Positions 4,872 to 40,150 of a DNA stretch of 41,320 nucleotides are shown here, one piece after another. The notes beneath the pieces are model-generated. The model was not told where the DNA came from and did no database searches. It was given only the letters and a program-made list of their open reading frames with translations. The stretch is from a virus. Positions within the stretch are counted from its first letter, which is position 1; every line of letters starts with the position of its first letter. Both the position numbers and the translations under genes were made by a program. Location: IMG/VR virus record IMGVR_UViG_3300032331_001475, positions 1-41,320 of that record; one strand, written 5' to 3'.

Positions 4872-5128
4872 GTAGTGAAGCAGAGCGGGGTTTCGGCCCC
4901 GGATTTGAGAAGGACGTTGCAGCGATCCTTGCAACGGCTGACCGTGGGTTGATGTACCCGAGGGAGGTTCGTGAGAATCTCGCCAAGGCCGGGATGATTA
5001 TCTACGATCAGGTGGAGATGCCCTCTGTTGAGCCGCCTTCTCCGACTGACGAGGTAGAGGACGAGATGCAACTCATCGGCGGATTCGACGATGAGAACAA
5101 TAACGGCGAGGAGGCCGACGGTGAGTGA
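4868..5128 (+). CDS. Small acidic protein between portal and scaffold
   Basis: An 86-residue protein starting with GTG in a GTGA overlap with the portal stop, so probably translationally coupled. The C-terminal third is strongly acidic (EVEDEMQ, DDENNNGEEADGE) and there is no recognised domain or membrane segment. The acidic tail and the position between portal and the scaffold-like gene fit a head-assembly accessory factor, but this is inference only. Its last codons contain a GAGGAGG sequence that acts as ribosome binding site for the next gene. Confidence 0.6.
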   Translation: MSSEAERGFGPGFEKDVAAILATADRGLMYPREVRENLAKAGMIIYDQVEMPSVEPPSPTDEVEDEMQLIGGFDDENNNGEEADGE

Positions 5129-5897: not shown

Positions 5898-5907
5898 CAC
5901 ACTGGGT

Positions 5908-5947
5908 GACGCCGTGCTTGTGGTACTCTTATCGCAAGCACGGCGTC
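5908..5947 (+). promoter_or_regulatory. Perfect 13-bp hairpin upstream of the major capsid gene
   Basis: GACGCCGTGCTTG at 5908-5920 is perfectly complementary to CAAGCACGGCGTC at 5935-5947, with a 14-nt loop. It lies in the only sizeable gap (5898-6053) of the head operon. It has no U-tract, so it is not a standard terminator; it could be an RNase processing or mRNA-stability element boosting capsid expression. I see no convincing promoter in the rest of the gap. Confidence 0.75.
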
Positions 5948-6053
5948 GGCTCTGGCGGAGAGAATCTTCGGGAGGACGGTGTGGACATAAGCGAGGCGCA
6001 CTCATCGTGCCCGCTTTCCATCCCATTCTTCATAGTTAGGAGATTCTTCAACA

Positions 6054-7358
6054 ATGTCTCTGTATTCCTCTTCCTCCGCATTTGCGAAGGATGTCTGGCT
6101 GCCGGGGCTGAACTACGAACTGCTCAGTGAGCCGGGTACTCTGCTCGGCTGGCTTGGTTCGTTTGCAGACAGCCGCGTCACCGTTGACATCGAGGGTCGT
6201 CGTTCGTACCTGAAGTTGCGTATCGGTGACTCGCTTGGTCAGGCAACCATCTCGCAGGGCGGGGATTACCCCGATCCGGGCGACCCGACTTACGACGAGG
6301 CTTCGCTCAACCTTGCGCACCTTGCGCACGCAGTTTCCTTCACGATGGAGGAGATGGCGCTTCTGGAGTCCACCGAGGCCGCTGCGGTCCCGGTCATGGC
6401 CGAGAAGATGAACGCCGCCAAGGAGTCAATGTCTTCGGACATTGAGCGTCAGGCTTGGGGCGACGGTACTGGTGTTCTTGCCAACGTCGCTTCTTCGTCG
6501 GGTAGCACCATTACCCTTGACGCCACCACCTCGGCACAGGTTGACCGCGACCGTTACCTCTGGGTGGACGACGCAAACCGCGCTCGCTACTCGGTGGTGC
6601 ATGGCACGACCGGTGCGGTGCAGGTTGCCAACTTCACCATCACCGACATCAACGAGTCCACGAACGTCGTGACTTGTTCGACGTCGATGACTTCCGCTAC
6701 CTCCGCTGGCGTCCTCGTCCGCTCGGGTACGTGGGCATCGGGTGGCGCGTTCAACTCTCTGGAGTTCCCCGGCATCAAGGCCGCTGTGTCGAACACCGGT
6801 ACCTACATGGGTATCGACCGCTCGGCTGCTGGCAAGGGGTACTGGCAGGGTATTAGCGTCAACAACTCGGGCACGCTGCGTCCGCTTACGGAGGAACTGG
6901 TTCACCAGACCTTCAACAAGATCGCGCGTCGCGCTGGCCGTCAGCCCACGGGTGACTACGCTGCGTTTGGTTCGTTCGGTACTTACACCGCGTACCACCA
7001 GATCATCACTCCGGGTCTGCGTTACACCCTGAACGACACTCCGGACATCGGCTTTGGCCGACCGCTGGAGATGCTGGGTGTCCCGCTTTACCGTGGCGCA
7101 CGTTGCCCGCGCAACAGCATCTACGTGCTGAAGAAGGACTCGCTGAAGTTTGTGCGTCCGAAGCACACGAAGCCGGGTGACCTGCTGAACTTCGTGAACC
7201 TTGGCGGTTCGGAGTTCTTCCTGAAGAACGCTTCGAGCGGTCAGGGCCACAGCGCGTCTGTCGTGGCCTACCTCGACGGCTTCCTCGGCATGATGACGAC
7301 TCGCCCGCGTGACCACGCGGTGCTTGCCGACATCTCTGAGGTTGCGGGCGCGTACTAG
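6054..7358 (+). CDS. Major capsid protein (HK97-fold type)
   Basis: A 434-residue protein with a good ribosome site (AGGAGA, 9 nt before ATG). The N-terminal arm region (SSAFAKDVWLPGLNYELL) is followed by FADSRVTVDIEGRRSYLKLRIGDS and a typical spine-helix-like segment with MEEMALLESTEAAAVPVMAE. Then comes DIERQAWGDGTGVLANV, a recurring motif of HK97-fold major capsid proteins. A Ser/Thr-rich insertion around residues 145-225 may be an inserted surface domain. The C-terminal region contains YRGARCPRNSIYVLKKDSLKF, typical of the capsid P-domain. Position between scaffold-like and decoration genes agrees. It would form the icosahedral shell. Confidence 0.88.
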   Translation: MSLYSSSSAFAKDVWLPGLNYELLSEPGTLLGWLGSFADSRVTVDIEGRRSYLKLRIGDSLGQATISQGGDYPDPGDPTYDEASLNLAHLAHAVSFTMEEMALLESTEAAAVPVMAEKMNAAKESMSSDIERQAWGDGTGVLANVASSSGSTITLDATTSAQVDRDRYLWVDDANRARYSVVHGTTGAVQVANFTITDINESTNVVTCSTSMTSATSAGVLVRSGTWASGGAFNSLEFPGIKAAVSNTGTYMGIDRSAAGKGYWQGISVNNSGTLRPLTEELVHQTFNKIARRAGRQPTGDYAAFGSFGTYTAYHQIITPGLRYTLNDTPDIGFGRPLEMLGVPLYRGARCPRNSIYVLKKDSLKFVRPKHTKPGDLLNFVNLGGSEFFLKNASSGQGHSASVVAYLDGFLGMMTTRPRDHAVLADISEVAGAY

Positions 7359-14290: not shown

Positions 14291-17200
14291 GTGGCAAGCA
14301 ACCTTCCAGCACTAGGTCGCAGTGGCCCCGCCCGCATCTACCTGTCGCCATCGACTGCGCCAAAGGCTGGCAGTAACAGGGCAACGTCGCGAGTATCCAC
14401 TGCTCGGGATGTAAGGAAAGAACCGGGCAACGCACCAGCCCGCCAGATGTCTTCGTATGCGGCACGTGCCATTGACCTGAGAAAGCGCACAGACGCAGCA
14501 CTTGTCAGGGTTGACCGACGTCTCAACAAGGATGAAGGCGACGGGGGAATCCTCGGAGCAATCACTGCTCCGTTCCGTATTGGCGGAGAGGTACTTGCTA
14601 ACGCTGCAACAGAGGCGCAGCAGATCATTCCCGGCATCGCCCGCCTTGGTTACGAGGTTGGGAAAAACACGGTTCAGGCTGTCACTGGCCCGATCCCCGG
14701 CGTCCCGTGGAGTGGCGCGCAGGCGGCAGGGCGTCTTGCCAACCTCGGTGTCAATGTTGTCAACTCGCTTGGCGAAGACATCCGTTACGTTGGCCAGCCG
14801 ATTGCGCGTGGGGACATTGGGGAACTTGCACGCCGTGTCAAAGAACAGCCGATCAGGGCAGCCAGCACCGGGATGCTTGCGTTCCCGGTCGCTGGCGCTG
14901 CGGTATCTGGCGGGCTGAAGGCTGGTTCGGTGGCAGCACGTGCAGCAGGATCGGTAAGGACGGCAGAACGTCTGGCCGCTGCCGCGTCAAAGAAGACCGG
15001 TCCCGGTAGCCGCAGGTTCCGCGAGCCAGAAGTTATTCAGAAGCCAACGGTTGACAAGTACGGGCGTGAGGTCAAGGTAGATGCTGGCCCCATCGAGCGC
15101 CGACGCCGACCGCGTTCCGCAAACCCCATCACAAGGGAAATCCAGCGTGCGGTAAACGACAGGGTTGTAGACGCGGTACGCAAGGCTGCGGGCACCGTCC
15201 CGATTACGTTCCGTGGGAAGAACATCAACCCGATGTCACCGGCTGCCCGATACAACCGGATCATCAACAAGGACGCTCGCGATACCGGCACGCAGTTCAT
15301 TGCCGATATGGAAACGGATGTCCTGAAGGGGAGCCAGACATTCCAGTCTGTTGTGCGCAAACTCCCCAAGTTGCTGGGCAGCAAGAAGAACGCAAAGATC
15401 GCTGGCCACACTGCCGCAATCCGTGCGATGGGGCTGAATAACCTTGGCAAGACGCATACGTCTCGTACATGGGGCCGAGACAGGCTTGTCAAGATGTACG
15501 AGACGGCGCGCGACACCACAGATAACCCGCTTCACGCTCGCGACGCTCAGGAGAACATTGACGTTCTCCGCTCTATCCCGGACCACTGGCTTGATCCAGC
15601 ACGGGCACCGAAGCCGGTCAACGATCTGACCAAAGTCTCCATCGATATGCTCAACGAGACGACCGGTCTGAAGGTTGGGACCGGGCTTCTTAGTGCAGAG
15701 GCTGCGATGGCGAGCGGCCGCAGGGCACAGGCTGTTGTCGCTGGCGTTGGCGAGGAATACCGCAATCTCCGCAAGGCTGTCAGGGCGCAGGAGAAGGCAG
15801 CCGCTGAGATCACCACGCTCCGTGGTTCGATCGCTGGCAAGCAGGCGCAACTTGCGAAGATGCGAACGAAGGTTGCTGCTGGTGGTGCGCTTAGCCCAAA
15901 GCAGCAGACTCTTGTCGTCACGCTCAAAGAAGACATCGTTGCCGCAAACCAGAGTATTCGTTCGCTAACTAACAAGCAGGCGAAGAAGACGGCGGAGGCG
16001 GAGAGGCTGCGCGCAGAAGTCGGTGCAGTGATTGACTGGGAGATGGCACCCGGCTCTTACTTCCCCAACCTGCGTAAGCCAGAACAGGGGATCGTCAAGC
16101 GGAAGCGGTTGGGTCAGCCGCTCGGTAAGCAGTCACCCCGCATGACGCCGCGCCGTGAGTTTGAGAACAAAGGGATCATTCTCCGAGACGGAACCGCAGC
16201 CTTCGGCCCAGACGTTTCGTTGTACGCGTTCCGCAACGCGCTTGACACGTTGGGTAGGCAGCGTGCAGTCGAGTCGCTGCTCACCAAGTATGTGGTCAAG
16301 GACACGAATGGAGTCCCGATCACGGGGGCAGCGGCACGGAAACTTGCGGAAGAGTCGAATGACCTTTACGTGTCGCGCTCAAAGATGCAACTTGTCCGTA
16401 CTCTGGCTGGCGTTGACCCCAAATCGCCTGAGGCGAAGGCGCTTTACAAAGCAGCGAGCAAGACTGACGACACGAAGTACCTGATCCCCAAGTCTGTCGA
16501 GACCGGTTGGAGGCAGGCGCTTGCCCCGTCCCGCAACTGGTTCGATGAACTCAACTCTTTCTGGAAGGCTGGTGTGCTAGCCCTGACTCCTCGCTGGTAC
16601 ATCCAGAACATGGTCGGTATGTGGGGCCAGTTCTCGCTTGGCGCTGGGCTTGACCTTCAGGCAATCCGCATGGCGAAGTCACCCAAGTATCGGGACGCTG
16701 TTGTCGCCGAGATTGAAGGGCACGGACTTGCGTCTGACCTTGGCGAGTTTGCACGGCGTGAGAGTGGGCGCGAAGGAAGGAACCCACTGCGTCGGGTCGT
16801 TGACTTTGGTTACAGGTGGAACGCAAAGTTCGAGGCTGTGCCGCGCCGCGCAATGTACTTCCATTCGATCAAGAAGAAGTTGCGCGAAGAAGAGATGGTC
16901 AAGCGCGGCGCTTCGTCTGCCGAACTTTCCGAAGCATGGCTCAACGTCATCGACGCTGCAAAGCGTGGCGAGAAGTGGGCCGATGACCTGATCGGTCAGG
17001 CGACGCTAGAGACCGAGCGGTTCATGGGTAACTACGTTCGTTACAACGAGTTCGAGCGGGCCTTCCTCCGCCGAGCGTTCCCGTTCTATGGGTGGATGCG
17101 GGCAATCCATCGTCTTGCGTTTGCACTTCCTATCAAGTATCCGAAGCGTGCTGCCCTCCTGTTCTCCGCGTCGCGCATGGCATATGAGTTGTACAAGGAC

Positions 17201-17923
17201 AACGAGTCAACGTTGCTCGACCCGATTCAGGGTCTGGTGATCGGTGGTGGTTCGTTCCTTGGGACCGGTTCATCGAACCCGGCTGAGACGCTACGTTCGA
17301 CGACCGAACTTACTTCGTCAATTGCGCGCAGCCTCCAGCGTGGTGACATCACCCAGATTCCTTCGGAGATCATTGCGTCTGCTTGGGAGCAGGCGAACCC
17401 GCTCGTAACAACGCCAGCAACAATCGCGATGAACGCAACCCCGACCGGCATCCCGCTCAACTTTGGAGCAGGGGGAGATGTGTTTACCGACAGGGCAAGC
17501 GGGAGATCGTTCACTATTGACCCCGCAACTGGAAACATCGTTGAGGCGAAGAACCGACTCGGCGTCGAGCAGTTGCTTGGCAAGCCCTTCCCGCTTTACA
17601 ACCTTGCAAAGCGCGCGCTTGCTGGCGGAACCCCGACCGACAGCGCGTCGCTTGCTGCGCTTGCTGCGTGGAGGATGCGCGGCAGCCCAGCGGAAGAAGC
17701 GCCGAACCTTGTGCAGCCCGAAAAGCCGGGTGGCCGTGCGCTTTCACGTGACCTGCGCTACGACCTCACCAACCTCCTTGGGTTCCCTGTGTACAGGTAC
17801 TCGCCAAAGAACGCGCTCATCGACTCGATCAAGGACATCGAAGCGAAGAAGCGTGCGTATGAGAATTACATCAAGAGCCAGCGCGAAGGCGAGGCTTTCT
17901 ATCGTAAACTTGGGGTACGGTAA
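14291..17923 (+). CDS. Large internal virion/ejection-type protein
   Basis: At 1210 residues (GTG start) this is the largest gene. An Ala/Arg-rich N-terminus (1-200) precedes long charged helices, including a coiled-coil-like stretch around 495-580. Around residues 745-800 is a conserved-looking block, WFDELNSFWKAGVLALTPRW and IQNMVGMWGQF. A second block around 840-960 contains NAKFEAVPRRAMYFHSIKKK, RYNEFERAFLRRAFPFYGWM and YPKRAALLF. I have seen comparable blocks in very large virion proteins of actinobacterial podovirus-like phages and in polyvalent-protein regions. It likely enters the cell with the DNA. No catalytic motif was identified. Confidence 0.6.
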   Translation: MASNLPALGRSGPARIYLSPSTAPKAGSNRATSRVSTARDVRKEPGNAPARQMSSYAARAIDLRKRTDAALVRVDRRLNKDEGDGGILGAITAPFRIGGEVLANAATEAQQIIPGIARLGYEVGKNTVQAVTGPIPGVPWSGAQAAGRLANLGVNVVNSLGEDIRYVGQPIARGDIGELARRVKEQPIRAASTGMLAFPVAGAAVSGGLKAGSVAARAAGSVRTAERLAAAASKKTGPGSRRFREPEVIQKPTVDKYGREVKVDAGPIERRRRPRSANPITREIQRAVNDRVVDAVRKAAGTVPITFRGKNINPMSPAARYNRIINKDARDTGTQFIADMETDVLKGSQTFQSVVRKLPKLLGSKKNAKIAGHTAAIRAMGLNNLGKTHTSRTWGRDRLVKMYETARDTTDNPLHARDAQENIDVLRSIPDHWLDPARAPKPVNDLTKVSIDMLNETTGLKVGTGLLSAEAAMASGRRAQAVVAGVGEEYRNLRKAVRAQEKAAAEITTLRGSIAGKQAQLAKMRTKVAAGGALSPKQQTLVVTLKEDIVAANQSIRSLTNKQAKKTAEAERLRAEVGAVIDWEMAPGSYFPNLRKPEQGIVKRKRLGQPLGKQSPRMTPRREFENKGIILRDGTAAFGPDVSLYAFRNALDTLGRQRAVESLLTKYVVKDTNGVPITGAAARKLAEESNDLYVSRSKMQLVRTLAGVDPKSPEAKALYKAASKTDDTKYLIPKSVETGWRQALAPSRNWFDELNSFWKAGVLALTPRWYIQNMVGMWGQFSLGAGLDLQAIRMAKSPKYRDAVVAEIEGHGLASDLGEFARRESGREGRNPLRRVVDFGYRWNAKFEAVPRRAMYFHSIKKKLREEEMVKRGASSAELSEAWLNVIDAAKRGEKWADDLIGQATLETERFMGNYVRYNEFERAFLRRAFPFYGWMRAIHRLAFALPIKYPKRAALLFSASRMAYELYKDNESTLLDPIQGLVIGGGSFLGTGSSNPAETLRSTTELTSSIARSLQRGDITQIPSEIIASAWEQANPLVTTPATIAMNATPTGIPLNFGAGGDVFTDRASGRSFTIDPATGNIVEAKNRLGVEQLLGKPFPLYNLAKRALAGGTPTDSASLAALAAWRMRGSPAEEAPNLVQPEKPGGRALSRDLRYDLTNLLGFPVYRYSPKNALIDSIKDIEAKKRAYENYIKSQREGEAFYRKLGVR

Positions 17924-23686: not shown

Positions 23687-24166
23687 ATGGAAAGCGTTCT
23701 TGATTGGGCGGTGAAATACGCAGAGAGGGGGTGGGCAGTGATCCCCCTGCACGGAGTGAACGACGACGGCTCATGCACATGCCACCTTGGTAATGAATGC
23801 GACAGCGCAGGCAAGCACCCGTACTGGCGCGACTGGCCGTCGAAGGCAAGCAGCAACGTTGAGCAGGTGACGGCATGGTTCATGGACGACACGCGCCCGC
23901 GCAACATCGGGATCGTGTGCGGTGCGTCGGGCTTGGTCGTGATCGACATTGACGATGAAGGCGGCGAGGCGATGATCCTCCCGCTCATGGAGGTGGGGAT
24001 CATCCCGCCTTGCCCGATGGTACGCACGAGGCGTGGCATCCACCTGTACTTGACAGGCAACGTGCCAGCCGCCAAGTTGCGGGGCATCGACATCAAGAGT
24101 GGCAACGGTTTCGTCGTGGCCCCACCGTCACGCAGGGTTGATGGCGGGGTGTACGAATGGGCGTGA
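23687..24166 (+). CDS. Prim-pol (archaeo-eukaryotic primase-polymerase domain)
   Basis: A 159-residue protein that is essentially only the N-terminal bifunctional primase/polymerase domain: GWAVIPLHG near 15-23, GKHPYWRDW near 42-50, NIGIVCGASG, the catalytic VIDIDD motif (Asp87, Asp89), RGIHLYL with His119, and GIDIKSGNGFVVAPPS (Asp135, last conserved block). Two Cys pairs in the segment at 30-38 may bind zinc. In many plasmids and phages this domain is fused to a PriCT helicase; here the chain stops at YEWA, and the next frame begins with the PriCT part in a 10-nt overlap. It would synthesise primers for replication. Confidence 0.85.
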   Translation: MESVLDWAVKYAERGWAVIPLHGVNDDGSCTCHLGNECDSAGKHPYWRDWPSKASSNVEQVTAWFMDDTRPRNIGIVCGASGLVVIDIDDEGGEAMILPLMEVGIIPPCPMVRTRRGIHLYLTGNVPAAKLRGIDIKSGNGFVVAPPSRRVDGGVYEWA

Positions 24167-25548
24167 CAGAACACGCGCTCCCGTGGGACTCGGGTACACC
24201 GGCAGTCACTGACGAACTCGCCCGCTGGATATGGGCAGAGTCCGGCACGGAGCGCATCACGCGTGATCGTGTGGACGGCCAGACCATCACGTACCCCGGA
24301 CGCAACAACGCGCTTGCGTCGCTCGCTGGCTCCATGCGTAGGCGTGGCATGGCACAGCCAGAGATTGAGGCGGCGCTGCTTGCAACTAACGCCAGCCGTG
24401 TCGAGCCTCCGCTTGACGAGGAGGACGTACGCAGGATCGCGAAGTCGGTCAGCCGGTACGAGGTGGCCGACGACGTACTGAAGATGGTGGAGCGCGGGCA
24501 GAGCGACCCCGTGTTCGGTGGCGAGACGAGCGCAGACAACACGCTCACGCCTGTCAGCATCCGCCAGATCGCAGAGATGGAGAACCCCGGTTACGTTGAG
24601 TTGCTCGGGCCTCTCGTCATGCGTGGCCTGCGTACGCTCGTGGGTGCGGCAACGGGTGAGGGCAAGACCACGCTCGTCATGTGGATGATGCGTGCGATCG
24701 TGGAGGGCGAGGGCTTCCTTGACTGGAAGGGAATTGGCCCTGACGAGGAGGGGAAGAAGCCAACGATCCTCATCATCGACGCAGAGCAGACGATCCCCGA
24801 TATCCAGCGCCTTGCGAAAGAGATCGGGATGGAGGACAGCGAACAAATCCAATACCTCTCCGTCCCCGATGGGCTGAACCTTGGCGAGTCAACGAACGAT
24901 GCGCTTCAGGTCGAGAGGATCATCGAGCAGATGCGACCCGACGTTCTTTGCGTTGATCCGTTGTACAAGGTTGCGTCGATCGACTCCAACAACGAGCAGG
25001 AAGCAGTGGGCCTGATGAAGTTGTTCGACCGCTGGCGTACCGAGTACGACTTTGCGTTCGTTATGCCTGTCCACACACGCAAGGGAGACAAGAAGAACCC
25101 CGGCAACGCACCGACACTTGACGACATCTTTGGCTCGGGCGCGTTCTCACGTGGTGCCGAGGTGATCCTCGGGCTACGGCAGGGCGACCCCGGTTTCTCT
25201 CGCATGTTCGTGTGGAAGCACAGGCCCGGTGGTTTGCAGAAGGGCACGCACATCGATATGACGTTCGACAGGGAGACGGGGTTCACCCGTGTGCATCGTG
25301 AGGGTATGCAGACGAACAGCCAGATGGTTGAGTCGCTGCTCGCGCGCAACCCGCAGGGCGTGACCGTCGATGAGATGGCAGCGCAGTTGGACAAGACACC
25401 GGGCAACATCCGCAAGACGCTCTCCCACCTCGGCGTTCGCATTGAGACTGAGCAGGTTCCGCATAGCAAGCGGAAGGTCTATCGTTTGTCAGAGAACGCG
25501 ATGGTTGACGACAACCTGCTCGCACGATGGGAGGACTTGGTTGACTGA
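24157..25548 (+). CDS. PriCT-RepA-type replicative helicase/ATPase
   Basis: A 463-residue protein. Residues 15-100 resemble the primase C-terminal (PriCT) domain, with YPGRNNALASLAGSM and PPLDEEDVRRIAKSV. The RecA-like ATPase domain follows: Walker A GAATGEGKT (163-171), Walker B ILIIDAE (204-210), DVLCVDPLY, and VMPVHTRKG as the likely H3/sensor part. Around 385-430 a winged-helix segment (NPQGVTVDEMAAQLDKTPGN) precedes the C-terminus. This domain order matches RepA/AAA_25 helicases that act with prim-pol at plasmid and phage origins. The overlap with prim-pol implies coupled translation of the two replication halves. Confidence 0.82.
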   Translation: MGVTEHALPWDSGTPAVTDELARWIWAESGTERITRDRVDGQTITYPGRNNALASLAGSMRRRGMAQPEIEAALLATNASRVEPPLDEEDVRRIAKSVSRYEVADDVLKMVERGQSDPVFGGETSADNTLTPVSIRQIAEMENPGYVELLGPLVMRGLRTLVGAATGEGKTTLVMWMMRAIVEGEGFLDWKGIGPDEEGKKPTILIIDAEQTIPDIQRLAKEIGMEDSEQIQYLSVPDGLNLGESTNDALQVERIIEQMRPDVLCVDPLYKVASIDSNNEQEAVGLMKLFDRWRTEYDFAFVMPVHTRKGDKKNPGNAPTLDDIFGSGAFSRGAEVILGLRQGDPGFSRMFVWKHRPGGLQKGTHIDMTFDRETGFTRVHREGMQTNSQMVESLLARNPQGVTVDEMAAQLDKTPGNIRKTLSHLGVRIETEQVPHSKRKVYRLSENAMVDDNLLARWEDLVD

Positions 25549-26273: not shown

Positions 26274-27002
26274 TTAGACCTCCTCCCCAGACTTGTCAAG
26301 CGCCTGCTGTTCGGCTTGCATGGCACGCGTGACGCTGCCCCACGCCTCACCTGTGACCATGTGCCGGACGGTGTTGCGGTTCCACTTGGCGCTGCGAGGT
26401 GGCTTGTATCCGAGAGCGTCAAGTTCCAACGCGATCTCGCTCATGCTCATGCCGCCCTCGTGAAGCGTGATCGCCTCCGCAACGGCAGCCGGGTCTACCT
26501 CCTTGCGCCTACCGACCGACCCACCCGAGCGGATGATTGCGTGAAGCGCGTCGCTCGTACGCTCGCTAATGATGCGGCGCTCGTACTCCGCAAGCATGGC
26601 GAACATTGCCTGCATCATCCACCCGCCAGCGGTGGTCGGGTCTGCTTCGGGAAGGTCGCACATGAACACGTACCACCCCTCTTTCTGCGAACGCTCGATG
26701 GTTTCGAGACGCTCGATCATGCGGCGGGAAAGCCTGTCACCCTTCGCTACCACGAGGATGCCCGACTCACGCCTGCACAGTTCGATCGCATCGACCGCAG
26801 CGTTGCGCTTCGCGAGCGGCTTGCTGAAACCGGACACTACCTCCGTGAACACGGCGATGTTGCGCCACCCCTTGTCCGTGATCCACTGCTCGCACGTGTG
26901 CAGTTGCGCGTCAAGCCCGTGGCCCGACTTGCCCTGCTCGTCAGTCGATACCCGCCTCAGGATCACTGCTGGCTGGTCCGTCGTCGTTGTAGATTGCTTC
27001 AC
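26274..27002 (-). CDS. Small serine recombinase (resolvase/invertase family)
   Basis: A 242-residue GTG-start protein with ribosome site GGGAGG. The resolvase domain covers about 12-150: ILRRVSTDEQ with nucleophile Ser19, GHGLDAQL, VVAKGDRLSRR (Arg90, Arg93), and EYERRIISERT (Glu139, Arg142). Residues 165-220 hold a helix-turn-helix-like stretch (AAVAEAITLHEGGMSMSEIA) and KWNRNTVRHM, as in the start of recombinase DNA-binding regions. It is far shorter than large serine integrases (over 450 residues). It could integrate, invert or resolve DNA; no prophage repressor or attachment site was proven. It overlaps the upstream gene by 62 nt. Confidence 0.85.
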   Translation of the reverse strand: MKQSTTTTDQPAVILRRVSTDEQGKSGHGLDAQLHTCEQWITDKGWRNIAVFTEVVSGFSKPLAKRNAAVDAIELCRRESGILVVAKGDRLSRRMIERLETIERSQKEGWYVFMCDLPEADPTTAGGWMMQAMFAMLAEYERRIISERTSDALHAIIRSGGSVGRRKEVDPAAVAEAITLHEGGMSMSEIALELDALGYKPPRSAKWNRNTVRHMVTGEAWGSVTRAMQAEQQALDKSGEEV

Positions 27003-27383: not shown

Positions 27384-27779
27384 TCATGGACGGAAGCAAG
27401 CGTGTGCGCCCCACGCCGTGATGCCAAACCTGTCACGGATGGCGTCGGCCACGAGGATCGTCTCGGGGATTGAGCCGGACCACAGGCGGTACGGGCTACC
27501 CGCTGCGTACCACGTGTGCTTATAGATGCCCAAGCCCCCGCCCCACGTTGGCCCTTGGTGGTGCCACGCCACGCCGTACTTCTCCGTGCGTGACGGCTGC
27601 TCGCACCTGCCCATTCGCACGAAACCCATCCAGTCGGGGACGCGTTGCTTCATCTGCGCCATCGTCGGGTGCGGAGGGAACTGCTGCGTTTTCTGCTTCG
27701 CGTCTGCCGATGCGTAACACACGAACGAACTCGTGAACGTAACGAACGCAACGGTTACTGCAAGCGTGGTGATCTTCAT
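27384..27779 (-). CDS. Secreted Rpf-like transglycosylase-fold protein
   Basis: Start at ATG 27779; 131 residues. Residues 1-26 form a signal peptide (KITTLAVTVAFVTFTSSFVC with an Ala-rich cleavage area). Residues 55-128 carry the resuscitation-promoting-factor/transglycosylase-like pattern: MGRCEQPSR with probable catalytic Glu, then WHHQGPTWGGGLGIYKHTW, and ILVADAIRDRFGITAWGAHAC. Such domains cleave actinobacterial peptidoglycan and are typical of Actinobacteria and their phages. It is separate from the lysis cassette and on the opposite strand, so it may modify the host wall, aid exit, or influence host dormancy. Confidence 0.78.
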   Translation of the reverse strand: MKITTLAVTVAFVTFTSSFVCYASADAKQKTQQFPPHPTMAQMKQRVPDWMGFVRMGRCEQPSRTEKYGVAWHHQGPTWGGGLGIYKHTWYAAGSPYRLWSGSIPETILVADAIRDRFGITAWGAHACFRP

Positions 27780-27813
27780 TGTCTTTCGTGTCCTATCTTC
27801 TTTGACATTTATC

Positions 27814-27833
27814 GCGAACGTAAGGAACGAACG
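27814..27833. promoter_or_regulatory. Motif shared with the terminase upstream region (copy 1)
   Basis: GCGAACGTAAG, two bases, then (A)CGAACG occurs here, 35 bp upstream of the Rpf-like start, and again at 36105-36122, 37 bp upstream of the large terminase start. The similar spacing and orientation suggest a common regulatory element. Sequence beside the motif is A/T-rich in both cases, giving a possible -10 (GATAAAT here on the minus strand; TATACAAT at the other copy). Confidence 0.5.
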
Positions 27834-27849
27834 CTTGACTAACGCAGAC

Positions 27850-28216: not shown

Positions 28217-28909
28217 TTACGGGCGGAGTGCCCAGACTTCCTGCTTGCCACGCTTGCCTGCCACGTACACCTTGCCCTCCTGCTCCAGCGAGGTGAGCGC
28301 GGCGCGCGCCTGTGACGTAGTGAGCGGAGACGGCCACCCGTTCGCGCCCTCCCACAAGCCGATGCCCCTGACCGTGGACTGCGCGCTCGTGAGCGCCTGC
28401 TGCACACGGAGTTTCGCGTCGGTCGGGCTGACACGTGGGGCACGCTTGCGGTTGGTGACGCTTGCGATCGGAGACCTGTACGAAGGCGAGTCGTTGTCCT
28501 CGGCAGGCTCGTCGTCCTCCTGCACCACGGGTGCGGAGCCGAACACGCCGCCCGTGATGGGCGTGAGGTCAACGGTGACGGAGCCGTCGCCTGCGTGTAC
28601 CACCTGCGTGGATGGCATGGTCGGCGTGGTCACGGTACCCGTGGTGGCGTACTCGTCAAGCGCCTCGGCAAGCGTCGGCTCGCCGTCCACGTGGGCGCTC
28701 AAACCTGCCTCGTGAAGCGCGTCCTGCAACACGCCAAGTGCTGCGAGGTGGGCGTCGGCACGGCGCTCTGCCTCGATCACCCTGCGCTCCACCTCCTCGC
28801 GCCACTCGTCCCACGTATCCGCGTCCCACATCGTGGAGCGGTCCATGCCGAACGTGCTTCCGTTCACGTGTCCTCCGTTCGTTGTGTTTGTCGTGTACGT
28901 ACCCAGCAT
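28217..28909 (-). CDS. Third protein of the MoxR-VWA operon, C-terminal winged-helix-like
   Basis: ATG 28909 (6 nt after GGGAGG) is preferred over GTG 28912; it gives 230 residues. Residues 25-70 form a charged helix or coiled coil (WDEWREEVERRVIEAERRAD). The middle is acidic and disordered-like (VVQEDDEPAEDNDSP). The last 75 residues look like a winged helix (RVQQALTSAQSTVRG; TTSQARAALTSLEQEGKVYV; GKQEVWAL), similar to DNA-binding or partner-binding wings. Its start overlaps the VWA stop (TGATG), so it is co-translated with it. It could be the substrate adaptor, DNA-binding part or regulator of the module. No known family was recognised. Confidence 0.6.
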   Translation of the reverse strand: MLGTYTTNTTNGGHVNGSTFGMDRSTMWDADTWDEWREEVERRVIEAERRADAHLAALGVLQDALHEAGLSAHVDGEPTLAEALDEYATTGTVTTPTMPSTQVVHAGDGSVTVDLTPITGGVFGSAPVVQEDDEPAEDNDSPSYRSPIASVTNRKRAPRVSPTDAKLRVQQALTSAQSTVRGIGLWEGANGWPSPLTTSQARAALTSLEQEGKVYVAGKRGKQEVWALRP

Positions 28910-30855
28910 CACTTGCCTCCCTTCATCATGGTGCGGATGAAGTCGCCGAGAACCTTCGGCAACTGGTTGCTGCTTGCGATCGACGTTGCGTACGTGTGGT
29001 AGTCGGGGTCAACGCTGCCGATACCGATGCCACCCGTAACGATTCCCTCCCGCAACGCCAACGCAACCTGCTCCGACGCTTCGTCCGGCGAGTTCGGATA
29101 CCCGTCAGTCACGACGACGATCATCTGCGTGTCAGCCTTGCGCTTGCGGCTCACTGCTCGTGCCCACACAAGGGCATCCGCCTCGTTCGTGCCGCCGCTT
29201 GCCCCGTAACGTACGCAACGGAGCGCCCGTGACATAGCGTTGTCGATCTTGCGAACCTGCGCCTTCGTGAGCGTTGATCGGAACGGGATGCCAAAGTCAA
29301 CGGTGCATCCGTACGCACACACTGCGACGTCGAGTCCGTCAACCTTGTCGGCTGCGTTGTACACGGCGAGTGCTGCGTCGGCTGCCTCGTATCCGTCGTG
29401 TCCTGCCATCGACCCGGATGCGTCGATGCACACGACGAGCGAGTAGTCGAGCGACCCCTTCGGCCCCGTCCTCTCACGGAAGGAACGGAGATCGCCAAGT
29501 GCGAGGCGCTTGGCAGACGCTGCGTCGAACGCGCCGCGCCGCTTGCGTCCGATCCATCCGCCGTTCGCGTTGTCCTGCAACACACGGCGAAGGTTCTTCG
29601 TAACGAGGCGGGTCACGGGAGAGAGACGCTGCGACGCACGCTGGTCGTCCACGTACTTGGGCGTGGTCTTACGCGTGGTGATGAAGTCGCCCTCCAACAC
29701 CTCGCTCGTGCGATCGTTGGCGGGGAGTGGCGTCTCGTCGCGATCGTCCTCCCACTTGCCACGCTCACGGTCCGGGCGAACCTTGTCGGGCAGGTTGTCG
29801 CTCTCCTCGCTGCTTGCGCCATCGCCACCGGGGTCGCCCCCGTACTCGTTCGTGGTGCCGTTGCTGTCGCCGTCATCGCCATCGTCCTGCGTGTCGCCGT
29901 CGTCGGCGTCCTCGTCGCCGTCGTCGCCGTCCTCGTCGGACTCGCCGTCACCCGTAGCGTCGCCGCTCGTGCCATCGGCACCCTCGTACTCGTCGTCCGT
30001 GTCGCCGTTGCCATCGGCTCCCTCGTCCTCGCCATCCTCGCCCTCGTCGCCCGTGCCGTTGGTCGGGCCGCTCGTGGGAGGCGGGTACTGGATGGTGCCG
30101 TCCATGTACGGGAGCAACGCGTCATACATAGGCTCCAGCGTGTCGATGAGCGAGCCGGTGTCCGGCTTGTCGCACGCCTCCATGAACGCGTCGTGGCAAG
30201 CGTCGATCACGGACTGCTCCGTTGCGTTCACGACGGGTGCGTACTGGTCTGCGCCGTCCGTGCATGACCGCTTGGCGAACAGGTACGAACACACCCTGCG
30301 CACCATGCCAACGTTGTTCCACTGGCTCACGTTCGGGGCGACCATGCGATCGTTCTCAATCTTTCGCAGCATTGCGAACGCAGGTACCTCACGCTCCATG
30401 CAGTCCTCGATGCGCACATCCTCCGCAAAGTTGACGACCATGAAGAACTCACGCCAGTGTGCGGGATCGCACCAGTCGGGGCGGCTGATCTCCGTCGTGA
30501 ACAACACGTGCCCCATCTCGTGGATCATGACCATCACGGCCTCGCCACGCATGATCGGGCGCAGCCTGTCGTAGTACCCGGTGGGGTTATCGTTCGCGGT
30601 CTGCGTTGACCACATGACCGTGATCTGGCGGGAGGTGGACTCGTCGATCTTCACGGCCCACCTGCCCACGGAGTTGTGACGCGTGATGATGGGGCGAGAG
30701 TCGCCGACGATGGCGCTCATCGTGACGGCAACCTCACGCTCCGCACGTGCCGTGTTGCTCGCCGACCATCCCGTGTACTCGACGAGCGGCTCGTTCCACC
30801 GTGCGTGATCGTTCGTAAGGCTGACGATCGTAGGTGTGGGTGTTTGTGTACTCAT
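28909..30855 (-). CDS. VWA-domain protein with HExxH motif (CobT/DUF2201-like)
   Basis: Start at ATG 30855 with GAGGT upstream; 648 residues (the frame stays open upstream but lacks a ribosome site). Residues 90-155 have a zincin-like HEMGH (112-116) followed by NFAEDVRIED (142-151), the pattern of metallopeptidase-like domains that precede VWA domains in CobT-related and DUF2201 proteins. Residues 268-350 are an extremely acidic Asp/Glu/Gly linker. Residues 468-620 form a VWA domain with an intact MIDAS: DASGS (478-482), Thr556 and Asp584. It follows the MoxR-type ATPase by 26 nt, the classic partner arrangement. It may be a chaperone or chelatase-like adaptor, or a regulated peptidase. Confidence 0.82.
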   Translation of the reverse strand: MSTQTPTPTIVSLTNDHARWNEPLVEYTGWSASNTARAEREVAVTMSAIVGDSRPIITRHNSVGRWAVKIDESTSRQITVMWSTQTANDNPTGYYDRLRPIMRGEAVMVMIHEMGHVLFTTEISRPDWCDPAHWREFFMVVNFAEDVRIEDCMEREVPAFAMLRKIENDRMVAPNVSQWNNVGMVRRVCSYLFAKRSCTDGADQYAPVVNATEQSVIDACHDAFMEACDKPDTGSLIDTLEPMYDALLPYMDGTIQYPPPTSGPTNGTGDEGEDGEDEGADGNGDTDDEYEGADGTSGDATGDGESDEDGDDGDEDADDGDTQDDGDDGDSNGTTNEYGGDPGGDGASSEESDNLPDKVRPDRERGKWEDDRDETPLPANDRTSEVLEGDFITTRKTTPKYVDDQRASQRLSPVTRLVTKNLRRVLQDNANGGWIGRKRRGAFDAASAKRLALGDLRSFRERTGPKGSLDYSLVVCIDASGSMAGHDGYEAADAALAVYNAADKVDGLDVAVCAYGCTVDFGIPFRSTLTKAQVRKIDNAMSRALRCVRYGASGGTNEADALVWARAVSRKRKADTQMIVVVTDGYPNSPDEASEQVALALREGIVTGGIGIGSVDPDYHTYATSIASSNQLPKVLGDFIRTMMKGGK

Positions 30856-30881
30856 GTGTGTACCTCTTTCTTTCGTGTGGA

Positions 30882-31988
30882 CTAGGCGATCGGGAGACCG
30901 GACTCGTCCACGTTCCACATTGCGAGGATGTTTCGGACGGGCTGGCGCTCGTCCTCGGGGAACTTGGCGACCAACGCACGCTCGGCAGACTCGGCCCACG
31001 TGTAGCAGCCGGACACCATCGCCTCGGCCCACATGAGCAGCGTGCGGAAGCCGACGGGGTGCGTGATCTCGCCCGCCTGCCTGATCTTGCTCACGGTCTC
31101 GGCCATGTTGCGTGCCACCGTTGCGTCGATCGACGGCACACGTGTCATGAGTGCCAGCGCCTCGTCGCCGTACGCAGGGTACGTGATGGCGGGCGTCCAC
31201 GGCAGGCGGTTCTCGAACGCAGGGTCCAACTCGTTCGTGCCGACGTACTCGTTGGGCGGGTTCGCCGTGGCCACGAGGATCAAGTCGCCACGGTCGATCG
31301 TCTCGCCCGTTGCCAACGTGAGGCGGGCGGTGCCGTCGAGCAGGGGCATGAGCGATGCGTACTCATTGACGTCACGGATGCGGTTGATCTCGTCGATGAG
31401 CAGGACCGTCGGCCTCTCGTGGCTCATGCGCACGGCGCTTGCGATCATGCGATCGACCCACTCAACGGTCGGCGCTCCCGTGGTCTCGTGTGCGGCGGGC
31501 AACTGCGTGCCGATGAACGAGTCCTCGTTCGACCCCGGCGTGATGCTCACGATCACGAGGTTCCAGTTGAGCAGCGACGTAAGCCACTCGATGCTCGCGG
31601 TCTTGCCGCACCCGGTGTCGCCGAACACGGCCATGTGCTTGCGCTCACGCAGGCCGAACATGACGTCGTACAGGTAGTCGTCCTGCCCGATGAGCGGGAA
31701 GGCACCGGGCGAGGGCGACGTAGGCAGGCCGTCCTCGATCGGGATCGCGATGCTCGGGCGGCTGCCCTTCTTGCACGTAACGTGCGTTGACGAGACGTCG
31801 ATGCCGCTGCCGACGTTCGCGAGGCTGGCCGTCAGGTCACGTGTGACGTAGACGTCCTTCGTGTCGGGGGACGGGAGCATGACGCCGATGTTTCCGTTCG
31901 CGCCGATGCTCACGGTGGCGACGCTCGTGCCGTCCACGGTGAGGGCTGCGTTGCCGTTGCCATCGGGGGTCAGGGTTACGCTAGGCAT
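30882..31988 (-). CDS. MoxR/CobS-type AAA+ ATPase
   Basis: A 368-residue protein. Residues 1-75 form a small beta-rich N-terminal region (VTLTPDGNGNAALTVDG and GANGNIGVML) unusual for the family. The AAA+ core follows: Walker A GDTGCGKT (123-130), Walker B VLLIDEIN (195-202), sensor 1 in ATANPP (Asn243), arginine finger in PAFENRL (Arg261) and sensor 2 in PVGFRTLLM (Arg315). This is the pattern of MoxR/CobS (AAA_5) ATPases that form hexamers and work with VWA partners to insert metals, activate or remodel protein complexes. The gene has its own promoter with an operator-like palindrome, and heads a three-gene operon. Confidence 0.85.
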   Translation of the reverse strand: MPSVTLTPDGNGNAALTVDGTSVATVSIGANGNIGVMLPSPDTKDVYVTRDLTASLANVGSGIDVSSTHVTCKKGSRPSIAIPIEDGLPTSPSPGAFPLIGQDDYLYDVMFGLRERKHMAVFGDTGCGKTASIEWLTSLLNWNLVIVSITPGSNEDSFIGTQLPAAHETTGAPTVEWVDRMIASAVRMSHERPTVLLIDEINRIRDVNEYASLMPLLDGTARLTLATGETIDRGDLILVATANPPNEYVGTNELDPAFENRLPWTPAITYPAYGDEALALMTRVPSIDATVARNMAETVSKIRQAGEITHPVGFRTLLMWAEAMVSGCYTWAESAERALVAKFPEDERQPVRNILAMWNVDESGLPIA

Positions 31989-34613: not shown

Positions 34614-36068
34614 CTAGCCCCTCGAAGCCCGCAATTCGTTCACTCCCGGCGCAATAAGCCCTTCTTCGAGGTATTCGCGCCACTTTCCGCTGTCGGCAGT
34701 CTCCCTTGGAGGCGGAGAAACCATCAACGCGTACTCCAGAGCGTCGAGACGGTGGTCATCTTTCTTTACTCGCTCGTCTGGGCGGTCGCGGTCCACCCTT
34801 CCACCGGGTCGATAGCGCGCGGAAGTGATGGAATCAACCAACCCGGCGCATCTGCGGCAGATAACGATCGCAGGACCGCGCCCATCCTTTCTCACAAGGC
34901 GAGACGCCAGCAACTGGGCGAGCCGCTGGTCACGGATACCCTGCCTCTTGCCCTTATCGCACGGTGCAATGTAGATACCCTGCCGTGCGTACTCCTCCAT
35001 GTATGAACCCGATGCGCCTCTGGCCCGCCCAGCAGGGTCACCGATGGCCATAACCTCTTTGATACCGAATCGCTCCCGGATCGCCTTGACATTCTTAGCG
35101 TGTTCCGATGGTTCCAGTTCTGCGACACCGTAATCAGCGAACACAACGATCGGGTCTTCGCCATCTTCGTCTACTGCCATCCATACGACAGCGGTTTCGA
35201 CGGCACGCCCGAAGTCCCAACCCTCGATGATGAGTTTGCCTCTAAGTGATTCGGGGGGTACGTCGTCGATGATGTGGATGTTCTCGTCGAACTCGGTGAA
35301 TACCTGCCCCTCGAACGCGCCCCAATCACCTCGAACGTACGCAGCGTGTCGCGCTCCGCTGAATCGCTTCTTGATTTCTTCGACGTATTCAGGGGGCAAA
35401 TATGGATTTTCGTCGGTCCGCGCTGCGAACACCTCGAACCCCTGCGAACGTTTCCCACTACATCCCGGAGGAACAAAGTTCTTGCGGATGAATCCAGACG
35501 GGCCGGGGTTGCACGTAACCCAGATACGCAGCGGGCCAGACACACGGACGTCTACTTCGCGCCCGTTGATGATCTGGACAGAGGTCGTCTTCCCCTCAGT
35601 GTTCGGCGTGCCGCGCAGACGGCCAGCGCCCAGCATCTCGTAGACCTCATCCGAAATCTCGGACCCCTCGTCGAGATATACCCAGTCGGGTTCCACTCCA
35701 AGGAAGTTCTGCTCGCTCTTTGCGTTACGGAACATGATCTCCGATCCGTTCCAGAACTTCACGTGAGGAGGTGCCGACGCTGCTTTGCCGCCAGTTACCT
35801 TCGCTAGGCCAGACTCAACGAGTCCGGTCATATCCAACTCACGCAGAAAAGTGCGCCAAGTAGAGTCCATCAGCGGGCGATATTCCTTACGCCCAATAAT
35901 CCCGAGACTCTTGGGGTATTCGATCGCGGTTCGGATCGCTTCCCGCGACCCGGCTTTGGTCTTGCCCGCGCCTACCGCTCCAGCGTAGAGACGCCACTTA
36001 CTTGTTGAACGGTGGAACGCCTCCTGCGCAGGAAGCGGGTGGTAGCCAGCCCATACATCGACGTTCAT
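34614..36068 (-). CDS. terL: Terminase large subunit
   Basis: A 484-residue protein from ATG 36068. ATPase domain: Walker A GAVGAGKT (30-37), Walker B WVYLDEGSE (129-137, Asp133/Glu134), coupling motif TCNP (185-188). Nuclease domain: WDFG (Asp285), AIGDPAGRA (Asp344) and DDHRLDALEY (Asp437/438 and Asp442). It docks on the portal, cuts concatemers and pumps DNA into the head. Unusually, it is on the opposite strand to all capsid genes, about 7.8 kb from portal and 8.5 kb from the putative small subunit, and heads the minus-strand block. Between 380 and 405 are basic residues (KGKRQGIRDQRLAQLLASRL), normal for the family. Confidence 0.9.
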   Translation of the reverse strand: MNVDVWAGYHPLPAQEAFHRSTSKWRLYAGAVGAGKTKAGSREAIRTAIEYPKSLGIIGRKEYRPLMDSTWRTFLRELDMTGLVESGLAKVTGGKAASAPPHVKFWNGSEIMFRNAKSEQNFLGVEPDWVYLDEGSEISDEVYEMLGAGRLRGTPNTEGKTTSVQIINGREVDVRVSGPLRIWVTCNPGPSGFIRKNFVPPGCSGKRSQGFEVFAARTDENPYLPPEYVEEIKKRFSGARHAAYVRGDWGAFEGQVFTEFDENIHIIDDVPPESLRGKLIIEGWDFGRAVETAVVWMAVDEDGEDPIVVFADYGVAELEPSEHAKNVKAIRERFGIKEVMAIGDPAGRARGASGSYMEEYARQGIYIAPCDKGKRQGIRDQRLAQLLASRLVRKDGRGPAIVICRRCAGLVDSITSARYRPGGRVDRDRPDERVKKDDHRLDALEYALMVSPPPRETADSGKWREYLEEGLIAPGVNELRASRG

Positions 36069-37597: not shown

Positions 37598-40150
37598 GTG
37601 GCCGCAACCCCTAGCCCGTACGACAAGAAGCCGGGACCGTCCCATGAATTTCAGAAGACGTTCCCCTTTGTGTCGAATAAAACCGGCGCGGCAGTCGGAG
37701 CAAGTCTTGGAGCCACTGCATTAGGTATTGGCGGCGGGATATACACAATCGGGAAGAAAGTCTCCGCAAGAAGGTCCGCTGCCGCTGGCGCTGCTCCTAA
37801 GCGGAAACTCCTAATCTCACCAACCGACGTCGTTCGCAACTCAGCAACGCGTGGACCGAAGAAAGTTGTTTACGGTCCTCCGCGTAATCCTGTTCGTGCG
37901 CCTCGTCCGGCTGCAGCAGACTCCCCAATGGCGTCTGTCAACCGTGCGATGAACGTGTCTGACAAGACGCGGGCTAACGTAAGGCAGTTTGCCAAAGACC
38001 TGCACAGCATCTACCAGATTCCGCCAAACGGACTCAACGACATCGGAAGCCACGACTGGGAAAACCGGGAGATGATCCGCAACTTTGACAAGTTGCCTTA
38101 TCGTGGAAGTGTGCCCGGAAACAAGGCAACAACAAGTCCATCTCCAGCAGCAGTAAGCAAGCGCAGCAGTAACTATCGCGGTCGTCACATTGTTTCGAGT
38201 AGTTCTTACCCACAGGGCCTTGCCACTCGCACTAGCAGCGGCGCTGCGTATGACCCGTACGGCAGTCTGACTGCTAGCGAGAAGGGTGCGCTCCGACGCA
38301 AGACCAATAAGGCCGCTGCTGCTGCAAAGCCGATCATTCAGCAGGGGTTGCGTGCGAGGTTCGGCGGTGACCAGCCTGCTCCGCCTAAGCCAAAGGCACC
38401 GAAGAAGCCGAGTGGTACTAAGACCCCCGCTCCGACGACTGTCGAGATTGTCCCGCAGGAGCCGCCAAAGCCGACGACGCCGAAGCCGTCTGGCGGAGGA
38501 AAGGGCAAGGGTAAGTCAACTCCCACTACGTCAGCCACCTTTGAGCGGACGTATCAGCCGGGACGACTTCCGGGCGAAACAAAGAAAGAAGCAAGCGCGC
38601 GTCACAAGGCGGAAACTGCGGCTGACAGGGCAGCCGAGCGCGCAGCAAAGAAGGGCGAGCCTAAGAACACGATGAAGGCTCCGACTTCGGCAAAGCCTCC
38701 TGCGCCTCCTAAGGCTGAAACCCCTGCACCACTTTCGACCGGAGACGGCCCAGAGCCGCCCGCTAAGATGGTGTACGACAACTTTGGCCAGCGCTTTGCA
38801 GATGTTCGTAACAACGAGATTGCGAGCATGACTCGTCAGGAGAAGACTGCGGTTCGTAAGGCGTCCAACAAGGCTGCATGGGCTGCCCGTCCGGTGCAGC
38901 GCCGTGGACTGAAGGCTAGGTATGGCGCTGGCGCGCAGAGCATGACACCCGAGCGGGTTGTTGCTCCTCCCACAAAGCCGAATAACGGAATGACGGCAGC
39001 GGAGCGGAAGTCTGCGAAGGAAGCAAAGCGTGCCGAGAACCGCGCAAAGCACGCTGCCGATCAAGCCGCAAGAGCGGCGGAGCGTAAGGCTGGAAAGGCG
39101 GCGGGTAGTGGGTTTGCACCGACCCCGAATCCGCCGTCTAAGGTTGGAACGGCAGCAGGTGGTGGGTTCGCACCGACCCCGCAGCCTCCCCCTAAGGCTG
39201 GAACAGCAGCAGGTGGTGGCTTCGTAAGCAGGTACATTCCGAAGCCAGCGTCCGACGTAATGACTCGGTACGGCGGGACCGGAAGAACTACACGCGGAAC
39301 ACTTCGCACCGAAACAACCCCGCATGGCCTAAAGCATGAAATGCGTGTTCGCACCCACCGCTATGGCCCCGTTAGTCCGGGAAGGCTGAAGCAAGACCCG
39401 ACTCTCGTCGGCAAGCCGAAGTTGACACCCATTGCCGAATCGACGACCAGCATGTTCCCCGGAACTCCGAGCAAACCTGCGACTCAGCAGCCGCACATGC
39501 AGGGGCGCGGGGCAAAGGTTATCGGCGAGCAGGGTAACTTCAGGGTTTGGCAAGGCAAGAACCGTGGTGACATTGTTATCCAGCATCGGTCCGGTAGGCA
39601 GTACAACCTTCCCTACAACCCGAACAAGCAGGGGCCGGTCAACGTCAAGGGTATCCTTGACTACGCCGGTAAGGGGAACAACGAGAAAGCGTTCCTGAAG
39701 GGCGGCTGGACCGCTGACGGTCGGTCCGTATCTGGCAAGGTTGGAACAAGAAGCCGCGCTGGGCGCTTTTTGATTGGTGCGGCAACAAAGGGCGGAGTTC
39801 TTTCCCTTGGTGGCGCTGCGCTATACGGGATTGGCAAGTTGCTCGGCCCCGCTGGTTCACTTCTTGGACCACAGGAGGCTGCCGCAGCGCCGACAATTCC
39901 GGGGCGTAGTTATGCGAACCGTGCTGCTAATGAACCGAATCGCGCTGCTCGTCACCGGTTGCAGCGTGAGGCTGTGACGGCAGACAGGTACCGGGCTGGC
40001 ATCGCCCGTCCGTTTATTGAGCCGAGCCAGTACCGCAGGATCGTAAAGAAGTACGGTCCGAGTCCGTTTGGTAACTACGCGGACGTCGTGAATACGTCTG
40101 GAGCGTTCGCAAACCGGTATCCGAACAAGCGTTATGGGGGGAAGAAGTAG
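37598..40150 (+). CDS. 850-residue Ala/Pro/Lys-rich repeat protein
   Basis: A GTG-start protein with low-complexity composition. Near 25-50 is a hydrophobic Gly/Ala stretch (AAVGASLGATALGIGGGIYT), a possible membrane-inserting segment. Two related ~34-residue blocks (about 223-256 and 411-445; core NKAA.AA.P...GL.AR(F/Y)G) are separated by Pro/Lys/Ala-rich linkers. Near 500-545 two 17-residue repeats G(S/G)GFAPTP.PP.K.GTAAG follow one another. A compact beta-rich region (610-700) and a second Gly/Leu hydrophobic stretch (725-755) follow. Probably virion-associated and possibly ejected; no enzyme motif seen. Confidence 0.6.
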   Translation: MAATPSPYDKKPGPSHEFQKTFPFVSNKTGAAVGASLGATALGIGGGIYTIGKKVSARRSAAAGAAPKRKLLISPTDVVRNSATRGPKKVVYGPPRNPVRAPRPAAADSPMASVNRAMNVSDKTRANVRQFAKDLHSIYQIPPNGLNDIGSHDWENREMIRNFDKLPYRGSVPGNKATTSPSPAAVSKRSSNYRGRHIVSSSSYPQGLATRTSSGAAYDPYGSLTASEKGALRRKTNKAAAAAKPIIQQGLRARFGGDQPAPPKPKAPKKPSGTKTPAPTTVEIVPQEPPKPTTPKPSGGGKGKGKSTPTTSATFERTYQPGRLPGETKKEASARHKAETAADRAAERAAKKGEPKNTMKAPTSAKPPAPPKAETPAPLSTGDGPEPPAKMVYDNFGQRFADVRNNEIASMTRQEKTAVRKASNKAAWAARPVQRRGLKARYGAGAQSMTPERVVAPPTKPNNGMTAAERKSAKEAKRAENRAKHAADQAARAAERKAGKAAGSGFAPTPNPPSKVGTAAGGGFAPTPQPPPKAGTAAGGGFVSRYIPKPASDVMTRYGGTGRTTRGTLRTETTPHGLKHEMRVRTHRYGPVSPGRLKQDPTLVGKPKLTPIAESTTSMFPGTPSKPATQQPHMQGRGAKVIGEQGNFRVWQGKNRGDIVIQHRSGRQYNLPYNPNKQGPVNVKGILDYAGKGNNEKAFLKGGWTADGRSVSGKVGTRSRAGRFLIGAATKGGVLSLGGAALYGIGKLLGPAGSLLGPQEAAAAPTIPGRSYANRAANEPNRAARHRLQREAVTADRYRAGIARPFIEPSQYRRIVKKYGPSPFGNYADVVNTSGAFANRYPNKRYGGKK
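38264..38932 (+). repeat. Duplicated ~34-codon block in the 850-residue protein
   Basis: The segments 38264-38365 and 38829-38932 encode matching blocks: SEKGALRRKTNKAAAAAKPI and QEKTAVRKASNKAAWAARPV, each followed by a GL(R/K)ARFG-like end. The DNA has diverged while the protein pattern is kept. Confidence 0.7.
39099..39227 (+). repeat. Tandem 51-bp repeats encoding GFAPTP units
   Basis: Two full 51-bp units and a partial third encode (S/G)GFAPTP.PP.K.GTAAG, within the 850-residue protein. High similarity between units indicates recent duplication and a length-variable linker. Confidence 0.7.

Follow-up and report, generated by a model that had tools for sequence, protein, structure and literature searches.

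Positions 28,217 to 31,988 of the IMG/VR virus record IMGVR_UViG_3300032331_001475 (41,320 bases, 60% GC; the whole of it was analysed and is called the window) carry on the minus strand a trio of genes for a MoxR-type AAA+ ATPase, a VWA protein with an HExxH motif and a winged-helix-like third protein. We consider it reasonably probable that the trio encodes one ATP-driven remodelling machine, with a metal-site VWA subunit and a winged-helix adaptor, because motor and VWA motifs are intact and the third gene always adjoins the pair in a group of four contigs. This near family consists of the window and three related IMG/VR phages (L002, L003 and L004). A remodelling machine is very likely, a chelatase unlikely.

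The trio consists of intact genes retained together

We observed in the ATPase a Walker A motif (GDTGCGKT, residues 123-130), a Walker B motif (VLLIDE, 195-200), sensor-1 (N243 within ATANP), sensor-2 (GFR, 313-315) and a candidate arginine finger (R261, in FENRL). These residues are invariant in all four near relatives except D124 of Walker A and L196 of Walker B, at an overall ATPase identity of 68, 90 and 64% to the three related contigs. The four also share some 100 extra N-terminal residues, beta-rich by eye. The VWA gene starts 26 nt past the ATPase stop at an ATG (30855) preceded by a GAGG-type ribosome site; a longer open reading frame (763 amino acids, start 31200) was rejected as an upstream over-extension overlapping the ATPase gene. 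Its product carries a metal-ion-dependent adhesion site (MIDAS; D478-S480-S482, T556 and D584, span 478-585) and an acidic, Gly-rich linker at about residues 262-355. The ATG of the third gene overlaps the VWA stop by one base.

Translation, the AAA_5 and VWA matches and conservation thus bear out the original prediction of three minus-strand reading frames with intact ATPase motifs, MIDAS and HEMGH, and the shared base agrees with the co-translation through TGATG that it had proposed; the acidic linker is present too, but some 90 residues long and not 80. Third-position GC is 0.91 for the ATPase gene, 0.77 for the VWA gene (extended reading frame) and 0.83 for the third gene. The three other contigs also conserve the trio, and for both reasons we take the genes to be real. 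Gene order is ATPase-VWA-third in the window and L003 and ATPase-third-VWA in L002 and L004, the VWA gene adjoining the ATPase gene or sitting one gene off. The third gene, which had been expected to travel with the pair, does so in all four contigs, and its retention through this re-ordering speaks for a functional link.

A conserved metal site in the VWA protein

In the N-terminal domain (N-domain) of the VWA protein, HEMGH (residues 112-116) is followed downstream by N142, E145 and D146. Relatives of this protein were gathered by pattern-based scans, by tblastn to named phages and plasmids and from annotation; tblastn of the window protein itself against INPHARED (E 1e-5) gave no match, relatives being reached via the ATPase and profiles, and a profile search of genome contigs with the near-family VWA alignment found no cellular homologue. 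Across 16 divergent mobile VWA proteins the invariant columns are almost solely those of the two sites: besides the start Met, they are H112, E113, H116, N142, E145 and D146 in the N-domain and D478, S480, S482, T556, D584 and G585 in MIDAS. Several of these rows had been found by patterns containing HExxH, so that the alignment is biased for motif conservation. Among mobile relatives chosen without the motif, HExxH was found in 15 of 17 and the MIDAS signature DxSxS in every one. HExxH as a universal character of mobile VWA proteins was therefore rejected; it is lost, with ATPase neighbour and MIDAS kept, in Pseudomonas phage hairong and Stenotrophomonas phage ANB28 (L172:3495-5573; L173:3483-5468).

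Genuine alphaproteobacterial CobT differed. None of 99 CobT reading frames (L028-L107 and further loci, collected with the pattern VEQARVEAIG from a different segment) had HExxH at the corresponding place, while all 99 had MIDAS as DxSGS; a single one carried HESPH 170 residues upstream, positionally unrelated. Zinc proteases share the consensus abXHEbbHbc, to which the context VMIHEMGHVL conforms. The metal site is well supported by conservation and a working one is likely; proteolysis by the N-domain seems somewhat more probable than a site that does not cut. The MoxR AAA+/VWA remodelling pair with a conserved HExxH region, as first proposed, is upheld.

We then consider the predicted fold of the N-domain (AlphaFold2, 16 sequences; predicted local distance difference test score, pLDDT, 73.8; predicted template-modelling score, pTM, 0.71). 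The model runs from a helix (32-50) through strands (56-60, 66-71 and 76-78) to the helix with HExxH (96-119) and a helix with N142, E145 and D146 (131-156). A minimal gluzincin is expected to show this same order, helix, strands, HExxH helix and third-ligand helix. Against BFVD, the model matched viral VWFA and CobT-named proteins (prob 1.00).

Several observations weigh against the machine as we describe it. The strand region of the model is of low confidence (pLDDT about 45-68), and Foldseek against the PDB retrieved no matching solved structure, zincins included (best E 0.68, prob 0.06). The N-domain had no match among curated peptidase families and reached the PHROG 'peptidase' family phrog_459 only at E 0.019. 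Since two of the 17 mobile relatives keep the pair without HExxH, catalysis would not be essential everywhere. Finally, the near family is a small sample of four contigs, and the adaptor role of the third protein is drawn only from a predicted fold and gene proximity. The original prediction had staked a distinct three-part module on a zincin-like fold and on the company of the third gene, and the outcome is divided: a zincin fold did not emerge from the PDB search, yet the third gene stands beside the pair in four of four near relatives.

These points lend some weight to a machine that only remodels, HExxH...NxxED holding a metal or stabilising the domain without cutting, like the CobT-like relatives that lost it. 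The absence of a zincin match for the model is consistent with this, as is the persistence of the pair without the motif in phages hairong and ANB28 and in CobT. However, it is not HExxH alone that is invariant in the 16 divergent proteins (several found with motif patterns) but also the N, E and D of the next helix, and the fit of VMIHEMGHVL to the zinc-protease consensus also argues for a cutting enzyme. We therefore regard a remodeller without peptidase activity as possible, though less probable than the machine with a metal-site subunit proposed above.

The third protein is a predicted winged-helix adaptor

The third protein was modelled as a coiled coil (30-67) and a disordered linker that lead into a winged helix (about 160-230), so that structure prediction supports, at the C-terminal end, the winged-helix-like character assigned to it earlier. 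This end consists of helices followed by a two-strand wing (pLDDT mostly 64-86), and Foldseek placed it with winged-helix domains (2mh2, Zalpha; prob 1.00, TMt 0.73, E 0.009-0.04). Family searches gave no match for the protein, and neither tblastn against INPHARED (E 1) nor a profile scan of IMG/VR found the gene outside the three related contigs. Identity with DUF3150 was considered and rejected (hhalign probability 0.04%).

In the comparison of window and L003, the third gene evolved fastest of the eight genes compared, with a ratio of nonsynonymous to synonymous substitution (dN/dS) of 0.56, against 0.40 for a lysozyme-like gene, 0.33 for the VWA gene, 0.17 for the ATPase gene and 0.06 for the terminase large subunit (TerL) gene. 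Its product keeps 45% identity where TerL keeps 93%. The simplest reading is an adaptor touching nucleic acid or a variable partner; alternatively, the protein may regulate the operon.

Such quick divergence might also be expected of host takeover or counter-defence, in which a host protein would be remodelled or cleaved and the fast winged-helix protein would serve as target adaptor, and the spread of the family over unrelated mobile elements fits this as well. We consider it unlikely, as nothing tied the trio directly to a host target and a search of defence families gave no match past weak P-loop similarity.

Gene neighbourhood and the wider family

The trio lies between the terminase gene on one side and the recombinase gene on the other (Table 1), and terminase and trio follow in the same order in L002, L003 and L004. 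This terminase block suggests packaging or virion work. In the wider family, an ATPase of the same kind shares the locus of the VWA gene in 17 of 19 loci and occurs in 25 of 26 mobile loci, the missing case being an annotated gene cut by the locus end. With one such VWA protein as tblastn query (E 1e-5), 3,080 plasmid records were matched, of which 2,194 are conjugative; in many cases the match spans the VWA domain only, so that full modules are fewer than 3,080. The plasmids inspected (L027, L174, L175, L176 and L177) carry ATPase-DUF3150-VWA, several next to genes for Bet/RecT and exonuclease or for toprim; DUF3150 was not mentioned in the papers searched. Phage MoxR/VWA pairs lie close to genes for primase, ligase, DNA polymerase III alpha, gp46/47 and the clamp. 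One such pair is that of PhiR41_1 (L178), with the VWA gene at 3480-5588 and a CobS-like gene at 5684-6919. In Synechococcus phage S-ShM2 (L005:9451-12990), a 'peptidase' gene sits one gene away from cobS, with gp46/47 on one side and the clamp genes on the other, and its product carries HEVGH...NVIEDARVE and MIDAS: cobS and this gene form a VWA/MoxR pair of the kind seen in the window.

The same evidence bears on whether the trio serves virion assembly only, maturing or packaging particles like the pair of Acidianus two-tailed virus and as proposed for jumbo phages (PMC7824862). The same-strand terminase block in the window and its three relatives fits such a role. Nevertheless, conjugative plasmids, although they form no virions, carry homologous ATPase-DUF3150-VWA sets, some of these beside Bet/exonuclease or toprim, and the phage pairs sit near replication and recombination genes; a role confined to the virion is disfavoured for these reasons and we hold it to be possible but not probable.

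Table 1. Positions of the trio, its metal-site motif and other features of the window
Feature	Position	Strand	Match or remark
MoxR-type AAA+ ATPase, 368 aa	30882-31988	-	AAA_5 8e-15 (above cut-off); phrog_249 (CobS-like) 4e-23
VWA protein, 648 aa: N-domain with HExxH, acidic/Gly linker, C-terminal VWA	28909-30855	-	VWA PF00092 6.6e-10
HExxH...NxxED metal-site motif, codons 112-150	30406-30522	-	conservation across mobile relatives
Third protein, 230 aa	28217-28909	-	no family match; kept beside pair in L002-L004
Terminase large subunit, at the head of the same-strand stretch holding the trio	34614-36068	-	phrog_2 1.3e-30
Serine recombinase, downstream of the trio, same strand	26274-27002	-	Resolvase 7e-27
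Portal	2646-4871	+	
Major head protein	6054-7358	+	
DnaB-like helicase	24157-25548		

Exonucleases and a primase are also encoded on the record. The terminase large subunit gene (34614-36068, -) is on the strand opposite to, and distant from, the portal and head genes (2646-7358, +). Two large proteins of 1210 and 850 amino acids, encoded at 14291-17923 (+) and 37598-40150 (+), gave no Pfam or PHROG match. The same holds for the fast-evolving product of 27384-27842 (-), which by eye has a lysozyme/Rpf-like look (WHHQGPTWGGGLGIYKHTW), a weak hint at an actinobacterial host.

A proposed mechanism

Characterised MoxR/VWA pairs include CobST, NorQD, RavA-ViaA and midasin. In other members a common mechanism has been described, in which the VWA protein grips the substrate and the ATPase drives a conformational change. 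By analogy with these pairs, the window ATPase would assemble as a ring, on which the VWA subunit would dock, holding the substrate via MIDAS, and ATP hydrolysis would exert a pull on what is held. With less certainty, the N-terminal site of the VWA subunit might bind zinc and clip the remodelled protein, and the winged-helix adaptor might deliver nucleic acid, or a target bound to it. The machine would most probably act on nucleoprotein or packaging components of the phage itself, since its genes stand in one same-strand block with that of the terminase, while relatives are found beside replication or recombination genes.

A more far-reaching scheme would make the trio a three-subunit AAA+ protease, the winged-helix adaptor feeding proteins bound to DNA into a MoxR ring equipped with a VWA-metallopeptidase clipper, and its core a general nucleoprotein remodeller of phages, phage-plasmids and conjugative plasmids, of which CobST would be the cellular relative that lost the cutting site. 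We offer this as a speculation with rather poor chances of being right in full. The product of the third gene is a plausible targeting subunit for this phage group.

Comparison with known systems

Iyer et al. 2021 described a jumbo-phage MoxR paired with a VWA protein bearing an N-terminal metallopeptidase domain and proposed a role in virion assembly and processing (PMC7824862, where ASV44728/ASV44729 are the proteins named). Compared by published description, the group 2.2 jumbo phages resemble the window in having an ATPase gene and a VWA gene with an N-terminal metallopeptidase-like domain; the window differs in being a phage contig of about 41 kb and in adding a third, winged-helix gene. 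Liu et al. 2021 reported that viral cobST clusters are widespread, proposed hijack of the host CobN and considered the 'peptidase' label on cyanophage CobT an error (PMC8651126). These viral 'CobS/CobT' and the cyanophage cobS/'peptidase' pairs such as that of S-ShM2 share with the window the order HExxH...N..ED, linker and VWA with an ATPase nearby, but at about 15-20% identity, and no third winged-helix gene was found with them by profile search. Both papers appear to describe one kind of protein. The residues speak for a metal site conserved in most such proteins, and the CobN-hijack reading leaves the retained HExxH unexplained.

The mobile VWA profile aligned with genuine CobT over its full length (hhalign, 99.6), and the 16-member profile found CobT first in the PDB (9uka_G, E 1e-30), from which we place mobile VWA proteins and CobT in one superfamily. 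Together with the CobS and CobT names in PHROG and the published proposal (PMC8651126), this remote homology is what speaks for viral CobS/CobT joining host CobN and raising cobalamin synthesis. Other results speak against it. The curated CobT (PF06213), CobT_C (PF11775) and NCBIfam CobT models gave no match with the window VWA protein, and the NCBIfam CobS model TIGR01650 scored 12.5 bits with the ATPase, against a cut-off of 558.55. In an unrooted tree of 34 ATPases, with several long branches and unsure deeper joins, the four near relatives form one group on a long branch (100/100) and eight genuine CobS a separate group (100/98), other mobile lineages falling between the two. Cobalt chelation by CobS/CobT requires CobN. 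None turned up in the window, nor did ten related viral records, which may be partial, contain one. Relatives sit on many plasmids, and HExxH, present in the window and most mobile relatives, is missing at that place from 99 of 99 genuine CobT. Membership of the window pair in CobST was rejected, as no curated model matches and the ATPase stands apart from genuine CobS, and the chelatase reading is improbable. Genuine alphaproteobacterial CobS/CobT are thus full-length remote homologues of the window pair that share its MIDAS and differ in HExxH and in ATPase group; as the tree is unrooted, loss of HExxH in the CobT lineage is something we infer.

MoxR/VWA genes of this kind are found in hundreds of sequenced phages and many plasmids, often labelled as cobalamin biosynthesis and in some cases counted as auxiliary metabolic genes. 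If most of them are remodelling peptidases, the inference of raised B12 production would be wrong for them. With HExxH kept in 15 of 17 mobile relatives against 0 of 99 CobT, the two published readings can be put to a direct test.

Closest in gene number are the ATPase-DUF3150-VWA sets of plasmids (IncA, IncHI2, Xanthomonas, Pseudomonas megaplasmid): like the window they have three genes, with HExxH and MIDAS in the VWA protein, but their third gene is unrelated (hhalign 0.04%). Acidianus two-tailed virus likewise has a viral MoxR/VWA pair, which is reported to lack a peptidase domain, as summarised in PMC7824862. Accordingly, the distinct module of the original prediction is not of a new kind, for the pair has been published (PMC7824862, PMC8651126), three-gene sets occur on plasmids and the two-gene core is already known in many phages and plasmids; what sets this trio apart is which third gene it has, together with the separate branch of the ATPase.

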